Source: Beroe forskalii
Taxonomy: Eukaryota; Ctenophora; Nuda; Beroida; Beroidae
Reading direction: 5' to 3'
NCBI GenBank assembly: GCA_011033025.1
Contig: WFMF01000011.1
Location: 310,001 to 374,000, forward strand
Length of the DNA stretch: 64,000 bases
Position 1 is the stretch's first letter, and every line of letters starts with the position of its first letter. The position numbers and the translations under genes were made by a program. Below, piece after piece: positions 17,722 through 63,050 of this stretch. The notes beneath the pieces are model-generated. The model ran no database searches. It saw nothing but the letters and a program-made list of their open reading frames with translations, and was not told the origin of the DNA.

Positions 17722-18408
17722 GGATCATATGAAAGTATATCAATGACCCCCTACTGACCCCCTGCTGACCTCCTACTGACCCCCTGCTGACCCCCTACTG
17801 AACCCCTGCTGACCCCCTACTGACCCCTGGTGAACCCTTACTGACCCCCTGGTGAACCCCTACTGACCACTTTCTGATCATTGTTTCAATTCTTATCATG
17901 AGTGATTTTTACCTAACATCTAAAAGCACTTTAAATTTCACTTTGCCTTATCATGACGCTTGACGTGTTATTTATGTTAGTTATGGCAAACATAACTAAC
18001 ACAACTAATATAGCTAAAATACAAACATAGCATACTTAACATATAGGGTGTGTTTATGGTATTTTGGTGTGTTGAGGGTGCATCGGTCGACTGGACATTT
18101 GCCTTATTCCTTTGTGATAAGGCAAAGTGAAATTTAAAGTGCTTTTAGATGTTAAAAATCACTTATGATAAGAATTGAAACAATGATCAGAAAGTGGTCA
18201 GTAGGGGTTCACCAGGGGGTCAGTAAGGGTTCACCAGGGGGTCAGTAGGGGTCAGCCCCCTGTGACGTCAGTCTACTGAACAGTAGACGGTCAGCAGGGG
18301 GTCAGTAGGGGTCAGTAGGTCAGTAGGGTTCAGCAGGGGTTTACCAGGGGGTCAGTAGGGTGTCAGCAGGGGGTCAGTAGGGGGTCATTGGTATACTTTC
18401 ATACGACC
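17722..18408. mobile_element. Foldback MITE with 11-bp repeats in its TIRs, left copy
   Basis: The ends are inverted: GGATCATATGAAAGTATA at the left and GTATACTTTCATACGACC at the right. Each TIR continues into tandem 11-bp units (GACCCCCTACT/GACCCCCTGCT), then an inverted segment with AACATCTAAAAGCACTTT and TTCACTTTGCCTTATCA. The centre holds ATAACTAACA-type words. It is shared with 40124-40824, so it predates the arm divergence. No coding capacity. Confidence 0.8.
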
Positions 18409-22796: not shown

Positions 22797-23292
22797 GGTC
22801 GTATGAAAGTATACCAATGACCCCCTACTGACCCCCTGGTTTTCCCCCTACTGTGAACCCCTGCTGACCCAATGGTGACCCCCTACTCACTACTGACCCC
22901 CTGGTGACCCCCTACTGACCCCCTGCTGACCCACTACTGAACCCCTACTGAACCCCTGCTCACTGCTGACCCCCTACTGCCCCCTGGTGATCCCCTGCTG
23001 CCCCCCTGGTGAACCCCCTGACCCCCTACTGACCCCCTGCTGACCCACTACTGAACCCCTGCTCACTGCTGACCCCCTACTGCCCCCTGGTGATCCCCTG
23101 CTGCCCCCTGGTCAACCCCTACTGACCCACTACTGAACCCCTGGCCCCTACTGACCCCCTGGTGAACCCCTACTGAACCCCTGCTCACTGCTGACCCCCT
23201 ACTGCCCCCTGGTGATCCCCTGCTGCCCCCCTGGTGAACCCCTACTGACCCCCTACTGACCCCCTACTGACCCCCTGCTGACACCCTACTGT
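22797..23292 (+). mobile_element. Foldback MITE relative, one-ended with an expanded 11-bp array
   Basis: Begins GGTCGTATGAAAGTATACC like the elements at 17722 and 40124, then runs for nearly 480 bp in 11-bp units (GACCCCCTACT and variants). A higher-order unit beginning CTGCTCACTGCTGACC is repeated three times (about 22960, 23060, 23185). The opposite TIR is absent. Confidence 0.7.
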
Positions 23293-40123: not shown

Positions 40124-40824
40124 GGTCGTATGAAAGTATACCAATGACCCCCTACTGACCCCCTGCTGACACCCTACTGACCCCCTGGTAAACCCCTGCT
40201 GAACCCCTGGTGAACCCCTGCTGACCCCCTGCTGACCCCCTACTGACCCCCTGCTGACCACCTACTGACCCCCTGCTGACCCCTGCTGCCCCTACTGAAC
40301 CCCTGCTGACCCCTCTACTGACCCCCCTGGTGAACCCTTTACTGACCCCTAGTGAACCCTACTAACCACTTTCTGATCATTGTTTCAATTCTTATCATAG
40401 TGATTTTTAACATCTAAAAGCACTTTAAATTTCACTTTGCCTTATCACAAAGCAATAAGGCAAATGACCAGTCGACCGATGCACCCTCAACACACCCTAT
40501 ATTATGTTAAGTATGCTATGTTAGTATTTTAGCTACATTAGTTGTGTTAGTTATGTTTGCCATAACTAACATAAATAACATGTCAAGCGTCATAATAAGG
40601 CAAAGTGAAATTTAAAGTACTTTTAGATGTTAGGTAAAAATCACTCATGATAAGAATTGAAACAATGATCAGAAAGTGGTCAGTAGGGGTTCACCAGGGG
40701 GTCAGTAAGGGTTCACCAGGGGGTCAGTAGGGGGTCACCAGGGGTTCAGTAGGGGGTCAGCAGGGGGTCAGTAGGAGGTCAGCAGGGGGTCAGTAGGGGG
40801 TCATTGATATACTTTCATATGACC
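40124..40824. mobile_element. Foldback MITE with 11-bp repeats in its TIRs, right copy
   Basis: Inverted counterpart of 17722-18408, from GGTCGTATGAAAGTATACC to TATACTTTCATATGACC, with 11-bp arrays of different copy number at both ends. Presence in both arms shows it inserted before they diverged. Confidence 0.8.
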
Positions 40825-47410: not shown

Positions 47411-47794
47411 AGTTTAGGACAATTGGGACAGTGAAACCCCACCCCCCTCTATTGAATGACCATCTTCAAAATTACCCTTTCCTAAGTTTAGTCTATGAAA
47501 TGGGGCAATATATCGTTAAAATTGCTGCGTTTCCCAAAACTGCACACAAAGTACTAGCAGCAGCAGTACCTTGCGTCCGGGGGTGCTAGGGGGGGATGTA
47601 CTCATGTAGTCCCATGTACCTACCTGTAATTTGTGATTGCTGGGAGCAGGACTGGATATTCTTGAGGAAGTGTTCCCACGTGAGGGTGTGAGAATAGACC
47701 TCCGTGACTTGAGACCTGGTGTCAACATGCTTCAATGCTACATAATATTATGTAGATCATATTTCAAATACATAAAGGAGTTAATGAATTACAT

Positions 47795-48419
47795 CTTAAT
47801 TATAATTTCGTAAGAGCACGTGAATAATGTCTGTTTGTGCGGGCGCACATTTTAAATTTGAGCTTGCCAAGAAATTATCAACTTATCAAGAGAAACGAAC
47901 GGGGAAATTGTGTTTATTGGTGCCGTTGCCATGGTTACTGGAAACTGCACGTGCTGGTTATGATCAGTTGTATGCGAGTGCTTTCTGATACGTTGCTAAC
48001 TGCTACGTCGTGGTTTTTGTTAATTTTACGTCTTCTACCTTTGAAATTGAAGATCTCAAGATAGAGAATGGGTATGGCTGGTATCGGGGAGGCTATAGGC
48101 GATATAATTCCCTTTATGGATCAGTGGCAATGGTCAGTCAATTTATTAAATCGATGATTAAAATGGTTTTAACTAAATAATGTAAATCGAGCAATTATTG
48201 AAAGAAATTTAAGATTAACCAAGGCAAAATCAAATTGAGCAAATTGGCATATATTATTGCGAATTTGGGAATCTTGGCAAAAAATAATGCGCTATTCAAC
48301 GTTCAGTATGCACGCACGGTTCTCAGATCGCAGTTAAATTATCTTCGTCATACAATTGCAATTAGACAAAACTGGCATTACTAAAAGTGACAAACGGATT
48401 ATTGTAAATTTAAACAAGT
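47795..48419. other. Right-only segment beside the LINE
   Basis: It lies where the left arm has 9101-9385. 47830-48120 shares GCACA..AAATTTGAGCTTGCCAAG and AGAGAATGGGTAT-type words with 21170-22640. The rest is AT-rich without a recognised gene. The boundary with the LINE 3' end is not visible. Confidence 0.4.
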
Positions 48420-49058
48420 AATTTATATTTTACAGCCATTACACCATGATTGAACATATATTAGTATTATCTCATTTTCAATTATGATTCAGATTAATTG
48501 CTCAATTACAATGGGCAACATTAACATAACAAAACAACTTAATAAATTATAAAAACTAAAAAGTCAGGATATCCTAACAATCTGAAATAATTAATTATTG
48601 TAAAAATTAAAACAGTAGCTTGCAATAAGCTATATTAAACACAATAACAAAGTGCAAACTATGCAGCAGATATGGAAATCTTATTTTCAAAGACAATTGA
48701 GTTGTATTGGGGCTATAGGAAATGCCTGTGGGAACTTGGGCATCACCCTTGGTACAACTAATCTGGGAACAATGAATTACTTGAATTCGTCAATTTGTTT
48801 CAAGGAAAGTTAGCTGCAAGTAAAAAACAATTTAAATTATCAATATTTGAAAGAAAAACAATCAGCGATATATAATAATTTAATTACCAGCACTATACTA
48901 ACCATGACCAGTAAATAAGATATTATGAAGGTAACCATAATGGTATAGGTGGTATGTGATGTTATTATATGTGAACTGCTGTTGCATATCTTTGCTATGA
49001 TTTTTCCTGTAAAATCTAATCACCTTTTAATTTGACAAACTGAAAGTCATGAAAGGTT

Positions 49059-52000
49059 TCATGCCTTATTTAGATTAGAAAAGTTTAGTTTAGGGTAAGG
49101 TTGTGGTTCTCCCATAGCTGAGGATGCCCTGATGACTGAAGGCCATGTAAAAAAAATTTTGAACTTGTTTTTTGCAACACAAGATGATGTGGACATGTCA
49201 GAAAGAAAGTCAGAATCCAAATGAGTAGCTTTACTTTTGAATTTATTCCATACTGTGGAGCCACAATATAAAAATTGCTGCCTTGAAGTTTCTAGTTTAT
49301 ACTTAGGCACCACAATTTTGCCCCTTTGACAACTTCTCATGGAGTCAGGAGAATTCTTAAGTAATGTAAACAAGGGAATTGGATATCTATATTTCTTAAT
49401 TTTGAAAATTTCATTCAGCACAAAAATTTTATGAAGGTTATGAACAGTAAGTAATTTCAAATCTGTGAAAAGTGGTTTGGTATGTTCCAGTACATAGTCT
49501 TTTGGAGCTAATTGTTCATCAATAGACCTAGTTCTAGCACATGTTTTATAGTATTCAGCATGATCAAAGTTCAACTTTTTCCCAAAGAGTAAACGTATAC
49601 ATCTCTTTTGAATATTGAAGATGTGACTCAATTTATTATTTGATACAGAACCCCATGCTGATATTCCATAAGTCAGGTGTGAAATGAAGAGTGAGTGATA
49701 AAGTTTACTGTAGTGTTCTTTAGGAATGAATTTTTTGATTCTCTTAATGGTAATGATTGAGCTGTTTAACTTTTGCTCCAAATGTTCTATGTGACCCTCC
49801 CAATTTAAGTTTTCGTCAATGATAATCCCAAGATATCTTGCCATATTTGTTTTTTTCAGTTTATTACCATTCAAATATAATTGGTGGTCACTACCAACAA
49901 TTTTAGCTCTAGCACATGTCTTTTGTTCATGATGGTTAAGTTTTGGCCTAAAATGTATGTATACACACTTCTCAACATTAATATGCATTTGATTACTTAA
50001 CATATAAAGTTGAACATCCTTAAGAACCTTGTTAGCCCGGCGATAAGCTTCCTCCTCTGAACATCCAGTCACAAATATATTAGTGTCATCAGCAAACATA
50101 ACAAAGTGCCCTAGTGTACAACAATTGATTATATCATTTATATAAAGAATGAAGAGCAGTGGCCCCAGCACAGATCCCTGTGGAACACCATATTTGACAG
50201 GCAATAAATCAGATTTCGTAGAATCATAGTTGGTAAGCTGCTGCCTATTTGTCAAGTAACTTTTTAGCAAACTGTGTGGTGCTCCTCTGATTCCATAGTT
50301 TTCTAATTTAACAAGAAGTTTCTCATGACTTATGGTATCAAAAGCTTTACTAAGATCTATGAATATGCCAAGAACATGGTTTTTATTTTCAATATTTAAA
50401 CTTATCTTATCAATTGAGTAGTTTACAGCATGTGAGGTTGAGTGGTGCCTTCGAAAGCCATATTGGTTTTCATATAGAACATTTTTTGCAACAATGAAGT
50501 TATACAAACGGAAGTATATCAGTTTTTCAAATATCTTTCCAAAGCATGGTAGCATTGAGACGGGTCTATAGTTTTTTAACAATTGGCTATTATCTTTCTT
50601 AAAAACAGGAGTAACTTGGCCAATTTTTAGGATATTGGGAAATGTACCTGTATCTAAAAATTTGTTGAAAAACAATGCCAAATGTGGAGTTATAATTGAT
50701 ATGCAAGACTTCAGGACTCGTACTGGAATATCACTAGCTTTACCATTTTCCAATTCATTTATTATCTTTTTTATTTCCTCTTCTGAACAAGGTTCAAGGT
50801 AGAGGCTATCATTTACCCTCTTTCCCATGTAAGTTGAAAAGTCAGGAATGGGGCACAATGGGAGATTTTCAGAACTGAAAGCTTCTTCATTCAAGATTTG
50901 TGCAACTGATACAAAATATTTATTAAACTCATTAGCAATGATTCTTCTGTCCTTGATTAGATTTCCATTTACAAGGAAAGAGCTCTTAGATTTTGATATA
51001 ATTTTACCTCTCAGTTGATTGATTAATTCCCAAGTTTTTTTACTATTACCTTTGCAGTTATCAAATTTCTTTGAATAGAACATATTTTTGGCTGATAAAA
51101 TCAGGGTTCGCAATCTCTTTCGGTAGTTTTTGTATTTTTCATAGATCTCGGAATCACCTAACTTATCTGCCTTAGTTTTACTTTTCTTCCATTTTTCATA
51201 CAGGAAATTCTTAAAGTTGATCGACTTAATGAGCCCATTAGTTATCCAGGGATTTTCTATCCTGTTGCGTTTTGAAGCTTTTACAGCTGTCGAACTGACT
51301 TTAAAACATTCATCCATTGTATTAGTTATGCATTCAAGGAATTGTGCAAAGCCAGTTTCATCGGAACTAAAATTATCAACAGAGACTTTTTGAGAAAGCT
51401 TAGAGTTAAATTCTAAGACATGTGTTTCACAATAATCATAATAAAAAGGTTGACTATCAGTAGTATCTTCACTCCCCTCACTATCTGCGTCAATTATGTC
51501 ATAGAAGCATACAGTTGGGTAGTGATGAGATACTTTAATATCAGTTAGTAGACCAGATCCAACTACATTGTTTACATCAGAAACAAGAATATTATCAATA
51601 CAGGATGTGTCACATCCTGGTTTTTCATGGGTTGGAAGAGATATTGTTGGTAGGAAGCAGTTACCAAATAATATGTTCTCAAATTTAGATTTGTTTAAAT
51701 CATTTTTAAAAAGATTTATGTTAAAATCTCCACATACAATAGAATGGTTGTTTATTTCTTTATTCGATAGAACATTAAGTACCTTTTCTATTTGTTGATT
51801 AAAATGTTTTAGGTTTCCACTTGGGGGTCTGTAAACAACTCCAAAATTGAAGTTTTGACCCTGGTAAGATATATCCATGAAAAGAGTTTCAATATCAGGA
51901 CTTATTATAGTAAGCTCATTGATGACATTTCCTGTAAAGCTTTCATTTAGATAAATGCCAAGCCCACTTCCTTTGTGTTTGTTAGGATATTTTGAGCTGA

Positions 52001-52520
52001 AAGTTGAAGCATATCCAGGAATTGCATATAAATTTTTGTGTGTCTCATTTATGTTTGTTTCAGTAATAGCTAGGATATCAAATTGATTATGCAGTAAAGA
52101 TAGTTTTGCTAGAAGGGTATCAAAATTTTGTGACATACCATCAATGTTATTAGAAAAAATAGCCAGAGGCTTTCTATCAAAACCAAAATTTTGAGAATTT
52201 ATCAGTTTGTTAGACATAAGTTTACAGTTGTTGAGACAAATTTTGATTTTTTCTATCTCAGCAAAAGCTTCAGGGTCCTCAGGGCTGTATTTATTATAGC
52301 TTATGGAGTTAAAGGGAGAATATTTGACCAACCTTCCCGCCTGACAATCATTGCAAGACCATTGGTCAATTGTTTGATCATAAACAAAATGATGTTTACC
52401 ACATTTGTGATGAGAAATTTTGTTGCATCTTGAACAGACCAAGAATTTTTGATGGATTAGAATTTGTTTACAGCAGCTCTCACATAGTTCACGTTTAATA
52501 GTCTCATGATTGGTAGCCAT
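49059..52520 (-). CDS. LINE ORF2: PHD finger, endonuclease, reverse transcriptase
   Basis: 1153 residues carrying out target-primed reverse transcription. An N-terminal C4HC3 PHD-like finger uses C13, C16, C29, C32, H37, C40, C56 and C59. The APE-type endonuclease (about 118-340) shows N125, E154 (AITETNIN), GDFN with D265/N267, D309 and SHH at 331-333. RT (about 600-900) has YRPVSMLPCF, NQYGFRRHHST (685), IDLSKAFDT (D722), GVPQGSVLGP (778) and FADD (D811, D812), then a LINE-type C-terminal region ending NKA. The RT wording fits the CR1/L2 group. The ATG lies 17 nt upstream of the end of ORF1, in a different frame, suggesting termination-reinitiation. No inactivating change seen. Confidence 0.92.
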   Translation of the reverse strand: MATNHETIKRELCESCCKQILIHQKFLVCSRCNKISHHKCGKHHFVYDQTIDQWSCNDCQAGRLVKYSPFNSISYNKYSPEDPEAFAEIEKIKICLNNCKLMSNKLINSQNFGFDRKPLAIFSNNIDGMSQNFDTLLAKLSLLHNQFDILAITETNINETHKNLYAIPGYASTFSSKYPNKHKGSGLGIYLNESFTGNVINELTIISPDIETLFMDISYQGQNFNFGVVYRPPSGNLKHFNQQIEKVLNVLSNKEINNHSIVCGDFNINLFKNDLNKSKFENILFGNCFLPTISLPTHEKPGCDTSCIDNILVSDVNNVVGSGLLTDIKVSHHYPTVCFYDIIDADSEGSEDTTDSQPFYYDYCETHVLEFNSKLSQKVSVDNFSSDETGFAQFLECITNTMDECFKVSSTAVKASKRNRIENPWITNGLIKSINFKNFLYEKWKKSKTKADKLGDSEIYEKYKNYRKRLRTLILSAKNMFYSKKFDNCKGNSKKTWELINQLRGKIISKSKSSFLVNGNLIKDRRIIANEFNKYFVSVAQILNEEAFSSENLPLCPIPDFSTYMGKRVNDSLYLEPCSEEEIKKIINELENGKASDIPVRVLKSCISIITPHLALFFNKFLDTGTFPNILKIGQVTPVFKKDNSQLLKNYRPVSMLPCFGKIFEKLIYFRLYNFIVAKNVLYENQYGFRRHHSTSHAVNYSIDKISLNIENKNHVLGIFIDLSKAFDTISHEKLLVKLENYGIRGAPHSLLKSYLTNRQQLTNYDSTKSDLLPVKYGVPQGSVLGPLLFILYINDIINCCTLGHFVMFADDTNIFVTGCSEEEAYRRANKVLKDVQLYMLSNQMHINVEKCVYIHFRPKLNHHEQKTCARAKIVGSDHQLYLNGNKLKKTNMARYLGIIIDENLNWEGHIEHLEQKLNSSIITIKRIKKFIPKEHYSKLYHSLFISHLTYGISAWGSVSNNKLSHIFNIQKRCIRLLFGKKLNFDHAEYYKTCARTRSIDEQLAPKDYVLEHTKPLFTDLKLLTVHNLHKIFVLNEIFKIKKYRYPIPLFTLLKNSPDSMRSCQRGKIVVPKYKLETSRQQFLYCGSTVWNKFKSKATHLDSDFLSDMSTSSCVAKNKFKIFFTWPSVIRASSAMGEPQPYPKLNFSNLNKA

Positions 52521-54567
52521 TGTTCATATTATTGATGTTAAAGGTTTGAGGACCTCCTACAGGGAAGCTATCACTATGATTTCCAGTCCAAGGGTAAGGA
52601 TGGGCTTGAAGAGGGCGGTTGCTGGGCTTATATCTAGGGTCAGGATTCCAGAAAAGAAATCCTGTGTCAGATGATTTCCTGTCAACAGTTCTACTATTTG
52701 ACCTGGGAAGGGAAGCTTCAGACTTCTTGTCAGACTTTCTTTTGATGATGCTATTCTTGATGTTGGCACAAAAAACTGAAATTCCCTTTGATCCAAGATG
52801 AACAGTGTCAAAGACTTTGGCACCACCATCTTGATAGTGGCGCCCAAGATCATGTGTGAGTAGACCTGAGCTGTTAGCAAGGTTTTGGTGTGAGATTACA
52901 AGCATATTGGAATGTCTATTAACAAAGCCTTTGATTCTTTCATTAAATTCATTGACAAGAGTATTGAGACCTGGGTCTTTAGTTGGAAGAAGGGAGCTAA
53001 CAAAAATCCTCATTCCAGGAAATTTGGCCTGTAGATCAAGACATTTATGCTCAAGTCTCTTTACAAGTAATGAGATTGGAACATGATTGTTGTTTCTTAT
53101 ATCATTGATCCCTGTGTGAATAACAAGGTTATGGTAAGGATATTCTAGCATATCAGGTCCAGGTATGCTGTCAATAGTTCCTGCTTTCACTCTGCAACCT
53201 GGCATCCATATCCCAAATGTATTTTTACCAGACCCAAACCTAAGATTCTGTGTGTTTGAGTCCCCTGCAATGAGAGTGGAATTCATGTAGTAGGGTGCTA
53301 ACTGTCTAAACGTTATGCTGTATCTTGTGGTTGAGCATTTAGATTCAGGGATCTCATGTTTCCAAAACTCCTGAGAGGCTCTAGAGAATGAAAGAAGACT
53401 ATTATCTGCTAGATTAATTAATTGGGTATCCTCTGAGGATGAAGTGAATTTCATGGGTCTTTCAGAGCCAATAGAAAGAGTGAAAATGTCACTCCAAGGT
53501 GCAATAAAACTTTCATTATCACTATGCTTTGGACAAACATTTGACCCATTTCTGTACTTGGTGATAAGACAAGAATTTATAAGTGACTTGGGATACTTTG
53601 ATGATATCTGATCAATTATGCACTGTAAAATATCTGGTACTGGATTAGCTTCATGTTGAATAGCACCATAGCGGTACCTGAACTCACCATAGTAGGCCAC
53701 TTCTCTACTGCTACTACCTGATTTGATAGTCTGGAAGTCACCACACTGCTCTAGGAAGTCCAACACTAGTTTGTGTTGGTCTTCGTTGAGAAAACCCTCT
53801 TCATAGGCTTTTGCTGGTTTACAAGAGGTGGCATCAAACTTGAAACTGGATGGTATATCATTAGTTTCCTGCAGGGGAGGGTTAGAGAAGCCAGCAAATT
53901 GCTTTGATTTCAGCTCAGTTAAAACTTTACCAATTTCAGTGTTGAATGTGTTAGCCTGCTCCTTAGATAATTTTTCAATAGTTTTGATATTATCTAGTAT
54001 TTCATGATTGAGTTTAGTGAGGGTTTTCAAATCATAGTCTTGGTTGGTTTCACTTTCAGAACTATACCCTTCCAAATTTCCTGATATAACAGTTTGTACC
54101 TCAGCACACAAAGACTTTTTCAGAGGTATAAACTTAGCAGGAGATTTCAAGGAAACAACATCTAATTCTTCTGAATCTGAGCTTGGAAATAAACCTGGGT
54201 AATTCAGATCACAACTCTGACAAAGGAACAAGAATTGTCCCCACCTGGATATGTTTTGCTTATGATTTGCATCCAAACGAACATACATTTCAAAGAAAGT
54301 TTTTGAACAAATAGCATTAGCAGCAAACCCACCTTTCTTATCCCTGCACAGGGCATGAAACAACTTACGGCATATGGAACAGGCAATAGCTTCATTAACA
54401 ATATTGCCATTGAAGGGGCATCTACAACATTTTCCATTGGTGATAAGAGGGTCTTTCAAAGTATTAACATTGACATTGCCATGGGACTTTTCTTTGTTAT
54501 CACTCTGAAACACATCTGAGGCCCCCCTCCCGGATGCTTGTTTTTTGCCACTATCTGTTTTTGACAT
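52504..54567 (-). CDS. LINE ORF1: PHD finger, AlkB-type dioxygenase, SGNH esterase
   Basis: 687 residues. A PHD-like finger uses C47, C50, C63, C66, H71, C74, C116 and C119. A helical, possibly coiled-coil stretch spans about 178-222. Residues about 285-425 look like a 2OG-Fe(II) dioxygenase of AlkB type: YYGEFRYRYG, the metal pair H348/D350 (PKHSDNE), distal H404 (FWKHE) and R415/R421 in TRYSITFR. Residues about 430-605 are an SGNH hydrolase: GDSN (S437), TGIND (N488) and DTVH (D587, H590). SGNH esterases are known in CR1/L2 ORF1 proteins; AlkB is not a component I recall as standard. Inferred roles: RNA binding or chaperoning, and possibly reversal of RNA alkylation or methylation. The C-terminal 80 residues are basic and Ser/Pro-rich. 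Confidence 0.88.
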   Translation of the reverse strand: MSKTDSGKKQASGRGASDVFQSDNKEKSHGNVNVNTLKDPLITNGKCCRCPFNGNIVNEAIACSICRKLFHALCRDKKGGFAANAICSKTFFEMYVRLDANHKQNISRWGQFLFLCQSCDLNYPGLFPSSDSEELDVVSLKSPAKFIPLKKSLCAEVQTVISGNLEGYSSESETNQDYDLKTLTKLNHEILDNIKTIEKLSKEQANTFNTEIGKVLTELKSKQFAGFSNPPLQETNDIPSSFKFDATSCKPAKAYEEGFLNEDQHKLVLDFLEQCGDFQTIKSGSSSREVAYYGEFRYRYGAIQHEANPVPDILQCIIDQISSKYPKSLINSCLITKYRNGSNVCPKHSDNESFIAPWSDIFTLSIGSERPMKFTSSSEDTQLINLADNSLLSFSRASQEFWKHEIPESKCSTTRYSITFRQLAPYYMNSTLIAGDSNTQNLRFGSGKNTFGIWMPGCRVKAGTIDSIPGPDMLEYPYHNLVIHTGINDIRNNNHVPISLLVKRLEHKCLDLQAKFPGMRIFVSSLLPTKDPGLNTLVNEFNERIKGFVNRHSNMLVISHQNLANSSGLLTHDLGRHYQDGGAKVFDTVHLGSKGISVFCANIKNSIIKRKSDKKSEASLPRSNSRTVDRKSSDTGFLFWNPDPRYKPSNRPLQAHPYPWTGNHSDSFPVGGPQTFNINNMNNGYQS

Positions 54568-54838
54568 ATTACAGTATTCAATCTAGCTTTTGTGAGTTGG
54601 AGCTAGTTGGAAAAAAGCATCCATGGGTTTAGTGACAAGGTAAACAACAGTTGTTGGGCAGACAAGGTTTCAGGGTCCCAAAACCTTATTAAGTTTCTGA
54701 GATATTGTTGAAAAAACAAATGTGGCTAGCATATTTGAGCAATGCAGGTGAAAATGTGCATTTCAGTCCTAGAGATTGTTACCTTTACTCCCAAGAATAG
54801 AAAAAGAAACAAGCTAATTCCACATCATTTATAAGTTA

Positions 54839-62004: not shown

Positions 62005-63050
62005 TAAAGCTCATCGACATCAGTGGTCTCAGAAAATCAATACTCTTCAGGCTCTTTGATGCCCTTATTAATCCAGTCGCATCCTACGCCTCCCAAATCT
62101 GGCTGCCTTATACCACTAACTCTTTCAAAGAAATTCTGAAATGCCTTCATTCCAAGTGAGCAACACCCTACACAGAGTATCACCAGTTCTCCCCAAAATC
62201 GCTGGTGACCCTTTGGAAAAGTTACACCTCACTTTCCTAAAATGGACCCTCGGCGTTAATAAGTATACTTCCAATGCAGCAGTGTGGGGTGACACAGGAA
62301 GACATCCCCTCATCATCACTCTCGAAGCAACTGTGGGTATACCAGCAGAGGCTCTCCACATTGGATCTCAATGACAGCGAGGCCTTGGTCAGACATGCGT
62401 ACAAAGAACAGCAGATCTCAGAACTGGATTGGTTGGCAAATCTCACTCAGCTCAAAAGTCATCTCGAAAGTCTCCACAACAAGAGCTATCAATATCCAAG
62501 CCAAATCCGTCAAGGTCTCAAAAACTGGTTCGTTGATAGGTGGAACACTGAACGGACACAGAACAGGAAGCTTCTCTTCTACAACAGTGTCAAAGACTCC
62601 TTCGAAACTGAATTATACCTGCAACTTCCCTTAGGGTATTGGGAGAGCAAACACCTAGCTCAGTTCAGGTCAAGCTCGCACAGCTACAACATCGAGACGG
62701 GTCGCTATGGGGCTAAGAGGGAATCTATACTCAACAGAGTCTGCCCTAACTGTTGCAGTGTCGACGAAGCACTCACAAACCTGTCAGAGCTCCCGTTCTT
62801 CCACCCGATAGTTGAAGATGAGATACATATCCTCCGATCCTGTCCAGCATACCTCTTCTTCAGACTCAACCTTAAGGACCCCACAACAACTGCCCTTAGC
62901 AATAACCTGAAGGACCTTTTCGCCAGTGCTCCCAACATAAGAGACATCTCAGCATTCCTCAAAAAGTCGCATGACAGAAGATTTCCGGAGCGTTGTCAAA
63001 CAACCAAAAACGCTAACACACAAACCGATAGTGGGTTACACATTACATGA
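62005..63050 (+). pseudogene. LINE ORF2 3' fragment (copy 2)
   Basis: 62005-62228 repeats copy 1 (LRKSILFRLFDALINPVASY) at roughly 95% by eye. It continues with FLKWTLGVNKYTSNAAVWGD (62236-62295) and, after a frameshift near 62310-62325, an open stretch to 63047. That stretch includes LWVYQQRLSTLDLND, IRQGLKNWFVDRWN and a C-terminal CPNC..H..C cluster (CPNCCSVDEALT, EDEIHILRSCPAYLFF) typical of LINE ORF2 C-termini. The endonuclease and RT core are absent, so the copy is 5' truncated. The family differs from the intact LINE at 48420-54651. Confidence 0.75.

Follow-up and report, generated by a model that had tools for sequence, protein, structure and literature searches.

What is an enzyme of the AlkB family doing in a retrotransposon protein of a comb jelly, and what might the element gain from it? 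The question is raised by a 64,000-nucleotide stretch of the Beroe forskalii genome (GenBank assembly GCA_011033025.1, contig WFMF01000011.1, positions 310,001 to 374,000 of the forward strand), hereafter the window. In the first open reading frame (ORF1) of a long interspersed nuclear element (LINE) within it, an initial annotation had recognized an AlkB-type dioxygenase beside an SGNH esterase, downstream of a PHD-like finger, and had proposed that the dioxygenase keeps the RNA template free of base methylation before reverse transcription. We found that ORF1 of this CR1/L2-like LINE contains an ALKBH2/3-like Fe(II)/2-oxoglutarate dioxygenase fused to an SGNH esterase. The genome searched comprised 216 Mb, and all element sequences described here come from this one genome.

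The identity of the dioxygenase was supported by several lines of evidence. ORF1 is open over 687 residues, with both ends exactly as first annotated, and the five residues named for AlkB catalysis are all at the expected positions (Table 1). Membership of the AlkB family was established by the Pfam profile PF13532 (2OG-FeII_Oxy_2), which matched residues 296-421 at 7.3e-14 (52.9 bits against a cut-off of 31.2), together with the presence of the HxD...H iron triad and the RxxxxxR 2-oxoglutarate ligands. A profile of the element family built from 20 of the 46 AlkB rows was ALKBH2/3-like by its best matches, and the predicted fold of the window domain was likewise of the ALKBH2/3 type, with a double-stranded beta-helix and ALKBH2 as its nearest structural match. 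The element family carries an HxD[DN]E motif that is common to human ALKBH3 and the host ALKBH2/3 proteins; the ALKBH5/FTO type, which erases N6-methyladenosine (m6A), was not the AlkB subfamily closest to the window domain. A chance or misassigned domain was ruled out by the Pfam match, the profile matches, and the predicted fold.

The esterase adjoining AlkB was likewise borne out, with its four catalytic residues in place (Table 1). We base this assignment on a 19-row profile, which matched a PAF acetylhydrolase-like structure (2hsj, 5.7e-14) and the LINE ORF1 esterase 4c1b (4.9e-12), and not on the single window sequence, which by itself scored 0.04 against SGNH PF13472, under the cut-off. 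The SGNH of another locus, L016, reached 1.3e-10 by itself, above the Pfam cut-off. The Ser, Gly/Asn, and DxxH blocks are present in the window SGNH; in some distant members (L044 and L048) the aligned stretch has no such Ser or Asp. An unaided single-sequence model of the window SGNH was poor and uninformative on the fold (predicted local distance difference test score, pLDDT, 46). The PHD-like finger held up in part: the window ORF1 had no Pfam match to it at E 1, and PHD_4 matched the ORF1s of L038, L041, and L143 at 5e-4 to 3e-3, all below the cut-off. From its Cys/His-rich sequence, the window ORF1 probably contains such a finger.

A survey of LINE ORF1s within this genome showed that the order AlkB then SGNH recurs. 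The genome scan with PF13532 scored 150 of 189 candidates, making all AlkB counts lower bounds, and at 140 of the 150 places the AlkB match was free of stops. A window-type SGNH lay 3' of AlkB on the same strand at 74 places, at 63 of them within 25 bases, and at 23 of the other 76 the SGNH 3' of AlkB was of a second type, found with a query from L017, for a total of 97 of 150; these counts used 132 of 147 window-type SGNH rows, 15 short rows nested in or near others being omitted, and the first 37 of 46 rows of the second type. Among the other 53 places are four host-like genes (L010-L013), the Helitron-type L016 and L025, AlkB frames that stand alone, and additional AlkB-SGNH frames, for example L019, L042, L044, L047, and L048. 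At no fewer than 29 of the 74 window-type pairs a reverse transcriptase (RT) in the same orientation lay within 6 kb downstream, at least 25 of these at a distance of 2513-2782 bases, and the controls among the same 74 pairs gave 2 on the 5' side and 0 on the opposite strand (131 of 132 RT rows used, a fraction of 2786 candidates). AlkB and SGNH share a single frame in the window and in most loci read, and many copies are fragments or broken frames (for example L034, L035, and L037). The possibility that an ALKBH gene or pseudogene of the host simply neighbours a LINE was ruled out by the one shared AlkB-SGNH frame, the recurrence at 97 places, and the existence of separate host ALKBH2-like and ALKBH3-like genes.

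The AlkB-bearing ORF1s fall into distinct types. Type A (the window, L028-L041, L045, L143, and L144) has AlkB, mostly with SGNH directly after it (the L045 frame excepted), and a PHD-like finger was found in several of its members. Type B (L014, L017, L021, L026, and others) also has AlkB followed by SGNH; its ORF2 RT is 25-30% identical to that of the window, and the Pfam scan of the four named members gave no PHD match at E 0.01. A third AlkB set (L019, L044, L048, and L049) groups apart. We also observed stand-alone AlkB frames of 157-218 residues (L050, L051, L052, and L053), which the AlkB tree places with the element AlkBs and not with host ALKBH2/3; they may be intronless genes or parts of other elements.

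The catalytic residues are retained throughout this set. By a pattern test, HxDxE, the distal H, and RxxxxxR were all present in 43 of the 44 AlkB rows from mobile elements or stand-alone frames, the 44th being truncated, and the H/D/H triad has not been lost in related elements. In a 20-row alignment, in which identity to the window domain ranged from 27 to 73%, the invariant columns include H103, D105, E107, H159, R170, and R176 (domain numbering). We compared nonsynonymous with synonymous substitution rates (dN/dS) in 28 pairs from eight window-family ORF1s (8 of 15 aligned). In line with the selection check proposed at the outset, the ratio for the AlkB part was 0.08-0.12 in the 11 pairs where it was computable, the other 17 being saturated, and the single close pair, the window and L030, gave 0.08 at a synonymous divergence (dS) of 0.29. 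Elsewhere in ORF1 the ratios were 0.11-0.33 (N-terminal part), 0.03-0.19 (SGNH), and 0.13-0.40 (tail); constraint on AlkB is thus similar to that on SGNH. A decayed AlkB passenger was ruled out by the 140 of 150 places without a stop and by the low dN/dS where computable. As a separate observation, silent divergence between the window and L030 was higher in the AlkB part (53293-53832; 0.29) than across the remainder of ORF1 (0.09-0.12), a hint that subfamilies may have exchanged sequence by recombination or gene conversion.

The same two domains were also found in a Helitron and in other Helitron-type frames. At L025 (contig C847, region G000:C847:363900-373400), one frame of 2026 residues contains SGNH (2.6e-7, slightly under the Pfam cut-off), AlkB (3.8e-19), DUF6570, and Helitron_like_N (7.2e-24), and a PIF1 helicase (7.5e-24) lies 3' in a separate frame; both hallmarks of a Helitron, Helitron_like_N (Rep) and the PIF1 helicase, are thus present. 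L016 (C225) shares 61% identity with L025 across SGNH and AlkB, and the matches listed at its locus include no Rep. On C297, AlkB (97744-98223) lies 4.0 kb 5' of Helitron_like_N (93170-93772) on the same strand in a separate frame, the spacing in L025 being 4.1 kb, and two partial relatives were found at C208 and C281. The Helitron order, SGNH then AlkB, is the reverse of that in LINEs. Long proline-rich repeats follow the SGNH-AlkB start in both L025 and L016.

To place the element AlkBs, we built a 53-row tree after removing 6 rows similar to others and the truncated L018_1134, adding L143 and L144, and taking 10 of the 80 bacterial loci. The AlkBs of elements and of stand-alone frames all separated from those of host, human, and bacteria (support 94/89), and the host has its own ALKBH2-like (L012, 3.5e-57) and ALKBH3-like (L010, 2.8e-31) genes, separate from the elements. 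Support for the LINE AlkBs as one side of a branch was weak (41/89), and a clade of LINE plus Helitron AlkBs was not rejected (approximately unbiased test, p-AU 0.437). Viral contigs, scanned with two peptide patterns only, gave no relative, and eight phage records had distant AlkBs that were 25-30% identical. An origin from a phage or viral contig was set aside on this two-pattern scan and the distance of the phage AlkBs.

How might such an enzyme serve the element? We propose, with confidence about evenly balanced, that AlkB demethylates the exposed single-stranded nucleic acid of the element and so raises the yield of full-length copies. Lesions of the N1-methyladenosine (m1A) and N3-methylcytidine (m3C) type arise on unpaired bases and block polymerases, and the ALKBH2/3 likeness together with the HxD[DN]E motif points to such lesions as the probable target. 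The ORF1 protein would coat the element RNA, the esterase domain would bring it to membranes or lipids, as proposed for a zebrafish L2 element, and AlkB would oxidatively remove N-methyl groups from the Watson-Crick face, m1A and m3C likeliest, from the RNA template and first cDNA strand of a LINE and from the single-stranded DNA of a Helitron. Removal of these polymerase-blocking marks would result in more full-length new copies. Cleaning of the RNA template before reverse transcription, the role first envisaged, is too narrow when taken alone, since the Helitron has both domains and does not move through an RNA template; we prefer exposed single strands to the RT template alone because the Helitron carries the same domain pair, and template cleaning is at best one case of this wider role. 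The AlkB-SGNH pairing across several mobile-element families suggests that elements shield their own genetic material. We tentatively consider it possible, if rather less than probable, that AlkB plus SGNH forms a portable module of selfish elements in one animal lineage, present in several LINE lineages and reversed in Helitrons, that would shield single-stranded replication intermediates from methylation, whether by chemical alkylation or by a host defence directed at foreign RNA or DNA.

A number of observations weigh against the proposal that AlkB demethylates exposed single strands. Four LINE-like ORF1s (L140, L141, L142, and L145) have SGNH but no AlkB in the 1.9 kb read around each; they carry a coiled-coil-like stretch ahead of SGNH and an arginine/glycine-rich tail behind it, and the SGNH tree places them beside type A (92/85). 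Since they are without it, AlkB is dispensable for some LINE-like ORF1s. Ten of the 11 AlkB dN/dS ratios come from pairs at dS 1.4-2.8, close to saturation. The structural model was computed with 41 of 80 bacterial AlkB loci as input, which biased it toward an AlkB-like answer, and PDB entry 8haz, labelled a DNA N6-methyladenine demethylase, matches the AlkB profile about as well (9.4e-9) as E. coli AlkB does. The residue following D350 is N in the window, other rows having D or N; at two positions almost invariant in the alignment with bacterial AlkB the window also differs, with T two residues ahead of the conserved Y93 and S within RxxxxxR where bacterial AlkB has N, and either could shift substrate preference. 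In the 53-row tree a long branch (2.13) leads to the Helitron AlkBs, so that a function in common with the LINE AlkBs is a guess.

Other functions have to be weighed on the same evidence. AlkB might erase m6A from element RNA, or from host mRNA, and thereby allow escape from m6A-based decay or surveillance, as proposed for an orchid Ty3/gypsy element whose AlkB, the retrotransposon case with reported activity, is an m6A eraser (PMC9289625, in excerpt), and a counter-eraser of this kind has no need to act on the RT template. However, the orchid enzyme is ALKBH5-like, whereas the window enzyme is ALKBH2/3-like by profile with the family motif HxD[DN]E, and in human L1 the sign is opposite, m6A promoting and ALKBH5 suppressing retrotransposition (PMC7873242, in excerpt). 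Because the orchid case is of the ALKBH5 type and m6A favours human L1, we rank this explanation second and regard it as unlikely. The nearest structural match of the predicted fold, ALKBH2, repairs DNA, and together with the 8haz profile match, the PHD-like fingers of some of these ORF1s, and the movement of Helitrons as DNA it would fit an enzyme that acts on DNA or chromatin, repairing or demethylating bases either where the element inserts or in its existing copies, the finger serving as chromatin reader. ALKBH2 wedges open the duplex with a V-F-G motif ahead of the first core strand; the window ORF1 is without V-F-G there, itself a weak point, and the type B ORF1s L014, L017, L021, and L026 carry AlkB and SGNH with no PHD match at the threshold given above, leaving an action on DNA or chromatin improbable in our estimate.

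An enzyme acting in trans on host or viral RNA or proteins, aiding the element indirectly or serving the host, would agree with the stand-alone frames L050-L053 and with the antiviral defence proposed for retrotransposon accessory enzymes (PMC6338049, in excerpt), but at 97 of 150 places AlkB has an SGNH neighbour in an ORF1-like arrangement, in a protein expected to bind the element's own RNA, and we consider such action in trans very unlikely. Nor do we give much weight to the idea that the fold is kept purely as a nucleic-acid-binding module in place of an RRM, with its catalysis unused: Pfam scans of 19 AlkB-matching element proteins found no RRM family at the limits used, so another part may bind RNA, but 43 of the 44 rows retain the full set of iron and 2-oxoglutarate ligands despite identities to the window as low as those of the 20-row alignment, and this is the explanation we find most implausible. 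Demethylation of exposed single strands remains the reading that we favour.

The LINE in the window lies on the minus strand (Table 1). ORF1 and ORF2 overlap by 17 bases. The 5' edge is common to five other copies, which begin at the same base in the alignment, and at the 3' end four copies (L135, L136, L137, and L139) match the window with small differences up to ...ATAAATTACTTGTTT, and L138, the fifth aligned copy, also matches to ...ATAAATTACTTGTTT with more gaps. Beyond this point all five aligned copies continue into short tandem copies of that end and then into divergent flanks. Identity of other copies to the window element is 95-99% across long stretches. ORF2 matched the Pfam families RVT_1 (2.2e-36) and Exo_endo_phos (8.6e-8), and PHD_4 only at 0.48. 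The hallmarks of CR1/L2 elements are thus present, namely an apurinic/apyrimidinic (APE)-type endonuclease with RT in ORF2, an esterase ORF1, and 3' short tandem repeats, the PHD part being weak; the clade name CR1/L2-like is inferred from this architecture.

Table 1. Features of the AlkB-bearing LINE in the window (residue numbers refer to ORF1)
Feature	Positions	Strand	Details
Whole LINE element, ~6.24 kb	48412..54652	-	Both edges set by comparison with other copies
5' untranslated region, 85 bases	54568..54652	-	
ORF1, 687 residues	52504..54567	-	Open reading frame
PHD-like finger of ORF1, tentative	54208..54429	-	Residues 47-120, Cys/His-rich; sequence reading; sub-cut-off PHD_4 in homologous ORF1s
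AlkB dioxygenase domain	53293..53832	-	Residues 246-425; iron H348/D350/H404; 2-oxoglutarate R415/R421; E352 of HxDxE
SGNH esterase domain	52753..53292	-	Residues 426-605; S437, N488, D587, H590
ORF2, 1153 residues	49059..52520	-	PHD-like N-terminus (weak), APE-type endonuclease, reverse transcriptase
3' untranslated region	48412..49058	-	Short tandem repeats at its end in other copies

Several other features were observed around the element and in the genome. A repeat of ~620 bases (about 47793-48411), present in dozens of copies at 87-93% identity, abuts the LINE 3' end at 48411. Much the same 11-base unit, TGACCCCCTAC or one little different from it, is tandemly repeated in four separate arrays, in one orientation or the other (17744-17868, 22818-23291, 40145-40349, and 40678-40803). 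A 258-residue frame at 62274-63050 has no Pfam match above the cut-off and resembles the zinc-binding C-terminus that closes a LINE reverse transcriptase, here of a different element. Elsewhere, a very divergent mitochondrial COX1 (L054, contig C1134) has four TGA codons read through and at conserved sites fits code 4 best, with arginine for AGR and isoleucine for ATA; ctenophores are thought to use this code (PMC6991124, in excerpt), and the gene thus points to a ctenophore host.

The presence of AlkB in a LINE ORF1 does appear unusual, as first suspected. Among the literature matches listed, judged mostly by title or abstract and with Repbase and most subscription papers outside their scope, there was no AlkB-bearing LINE or Helitron, so an unseen report is possible; the nearest case was the orchid Ty3/gypsy m6A demethylase. 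An article on accessory domains (PMC6338049) does not contain the word AlkB. An active-looking demethylase domain in the ORF1 of LINEs whose RTs are ~25-30% identical to that of the window, and in a Helitron, would make nucleic-acid repair or the editing of RNA marks part of the core apparatus of transposition. It becomes testable whether retrotransposition is held back by base methylation, with the AlkB-less relatives L140-L142 and L145 of the same genome as a possible natural control, and the shield reading, if true, would mean that selfish elements bring their own nucleic-acid repair enzyme.

Human ALKBH2 and ALKBH3 are host repair genes, and the element AlkBs fall outside the host ALKBH2-like and ALKBH3-like genes. 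AlkB domains also occur in plant RNA viruses, which are likewise parasitic, RNA-based elements. The ORF1s of Jockey-superfamily LINEs have been classified into five types by their combinations of RRM, CCHC, PHD, and esterase modules (PMC4120745, in excerpt). The type IV (esterase) ORF1 of CR1/L2 LINEs, exemplified by zebrafish ZfL2-1 ORF1p (4c1b), has in common with the window element an SGNH domain in ORF1, an APE-RT ORF2, and in some cases an upstream zinc finger, whereas the window ORF1 has AlkB directly ahead of the esterase; neither "alkb" nor "dioxygenase" appears in PMC4120745 or PMC3905857, which describe this type. The esterase ORF1 was already known; the novelty would lie in the demethylase-like domain joined to it, which makes a further type of LINE ORF1. 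Other retrotransposons have captured cytosine methyltransferases, likewise base-modification enzymes, which add methyl groups (at cytosine C5) instead of removing them (PMC5890265, in excerpt). In the orchid Ty3/gypsy element, an AlkB-family dioxygenase is likewise fixed in a retrotransposon, as a paALKBH5-like ORF that is reported to remove m6A from single-stranded RNA (PMC9289625, in excerpt); that is a long terminal repeat element of plants with a separate ALKBH5-like ORF, whereas the enzyme described here is ALKBH2/3-like, fused into the ORF1 of a LINE, and found in several lineages.

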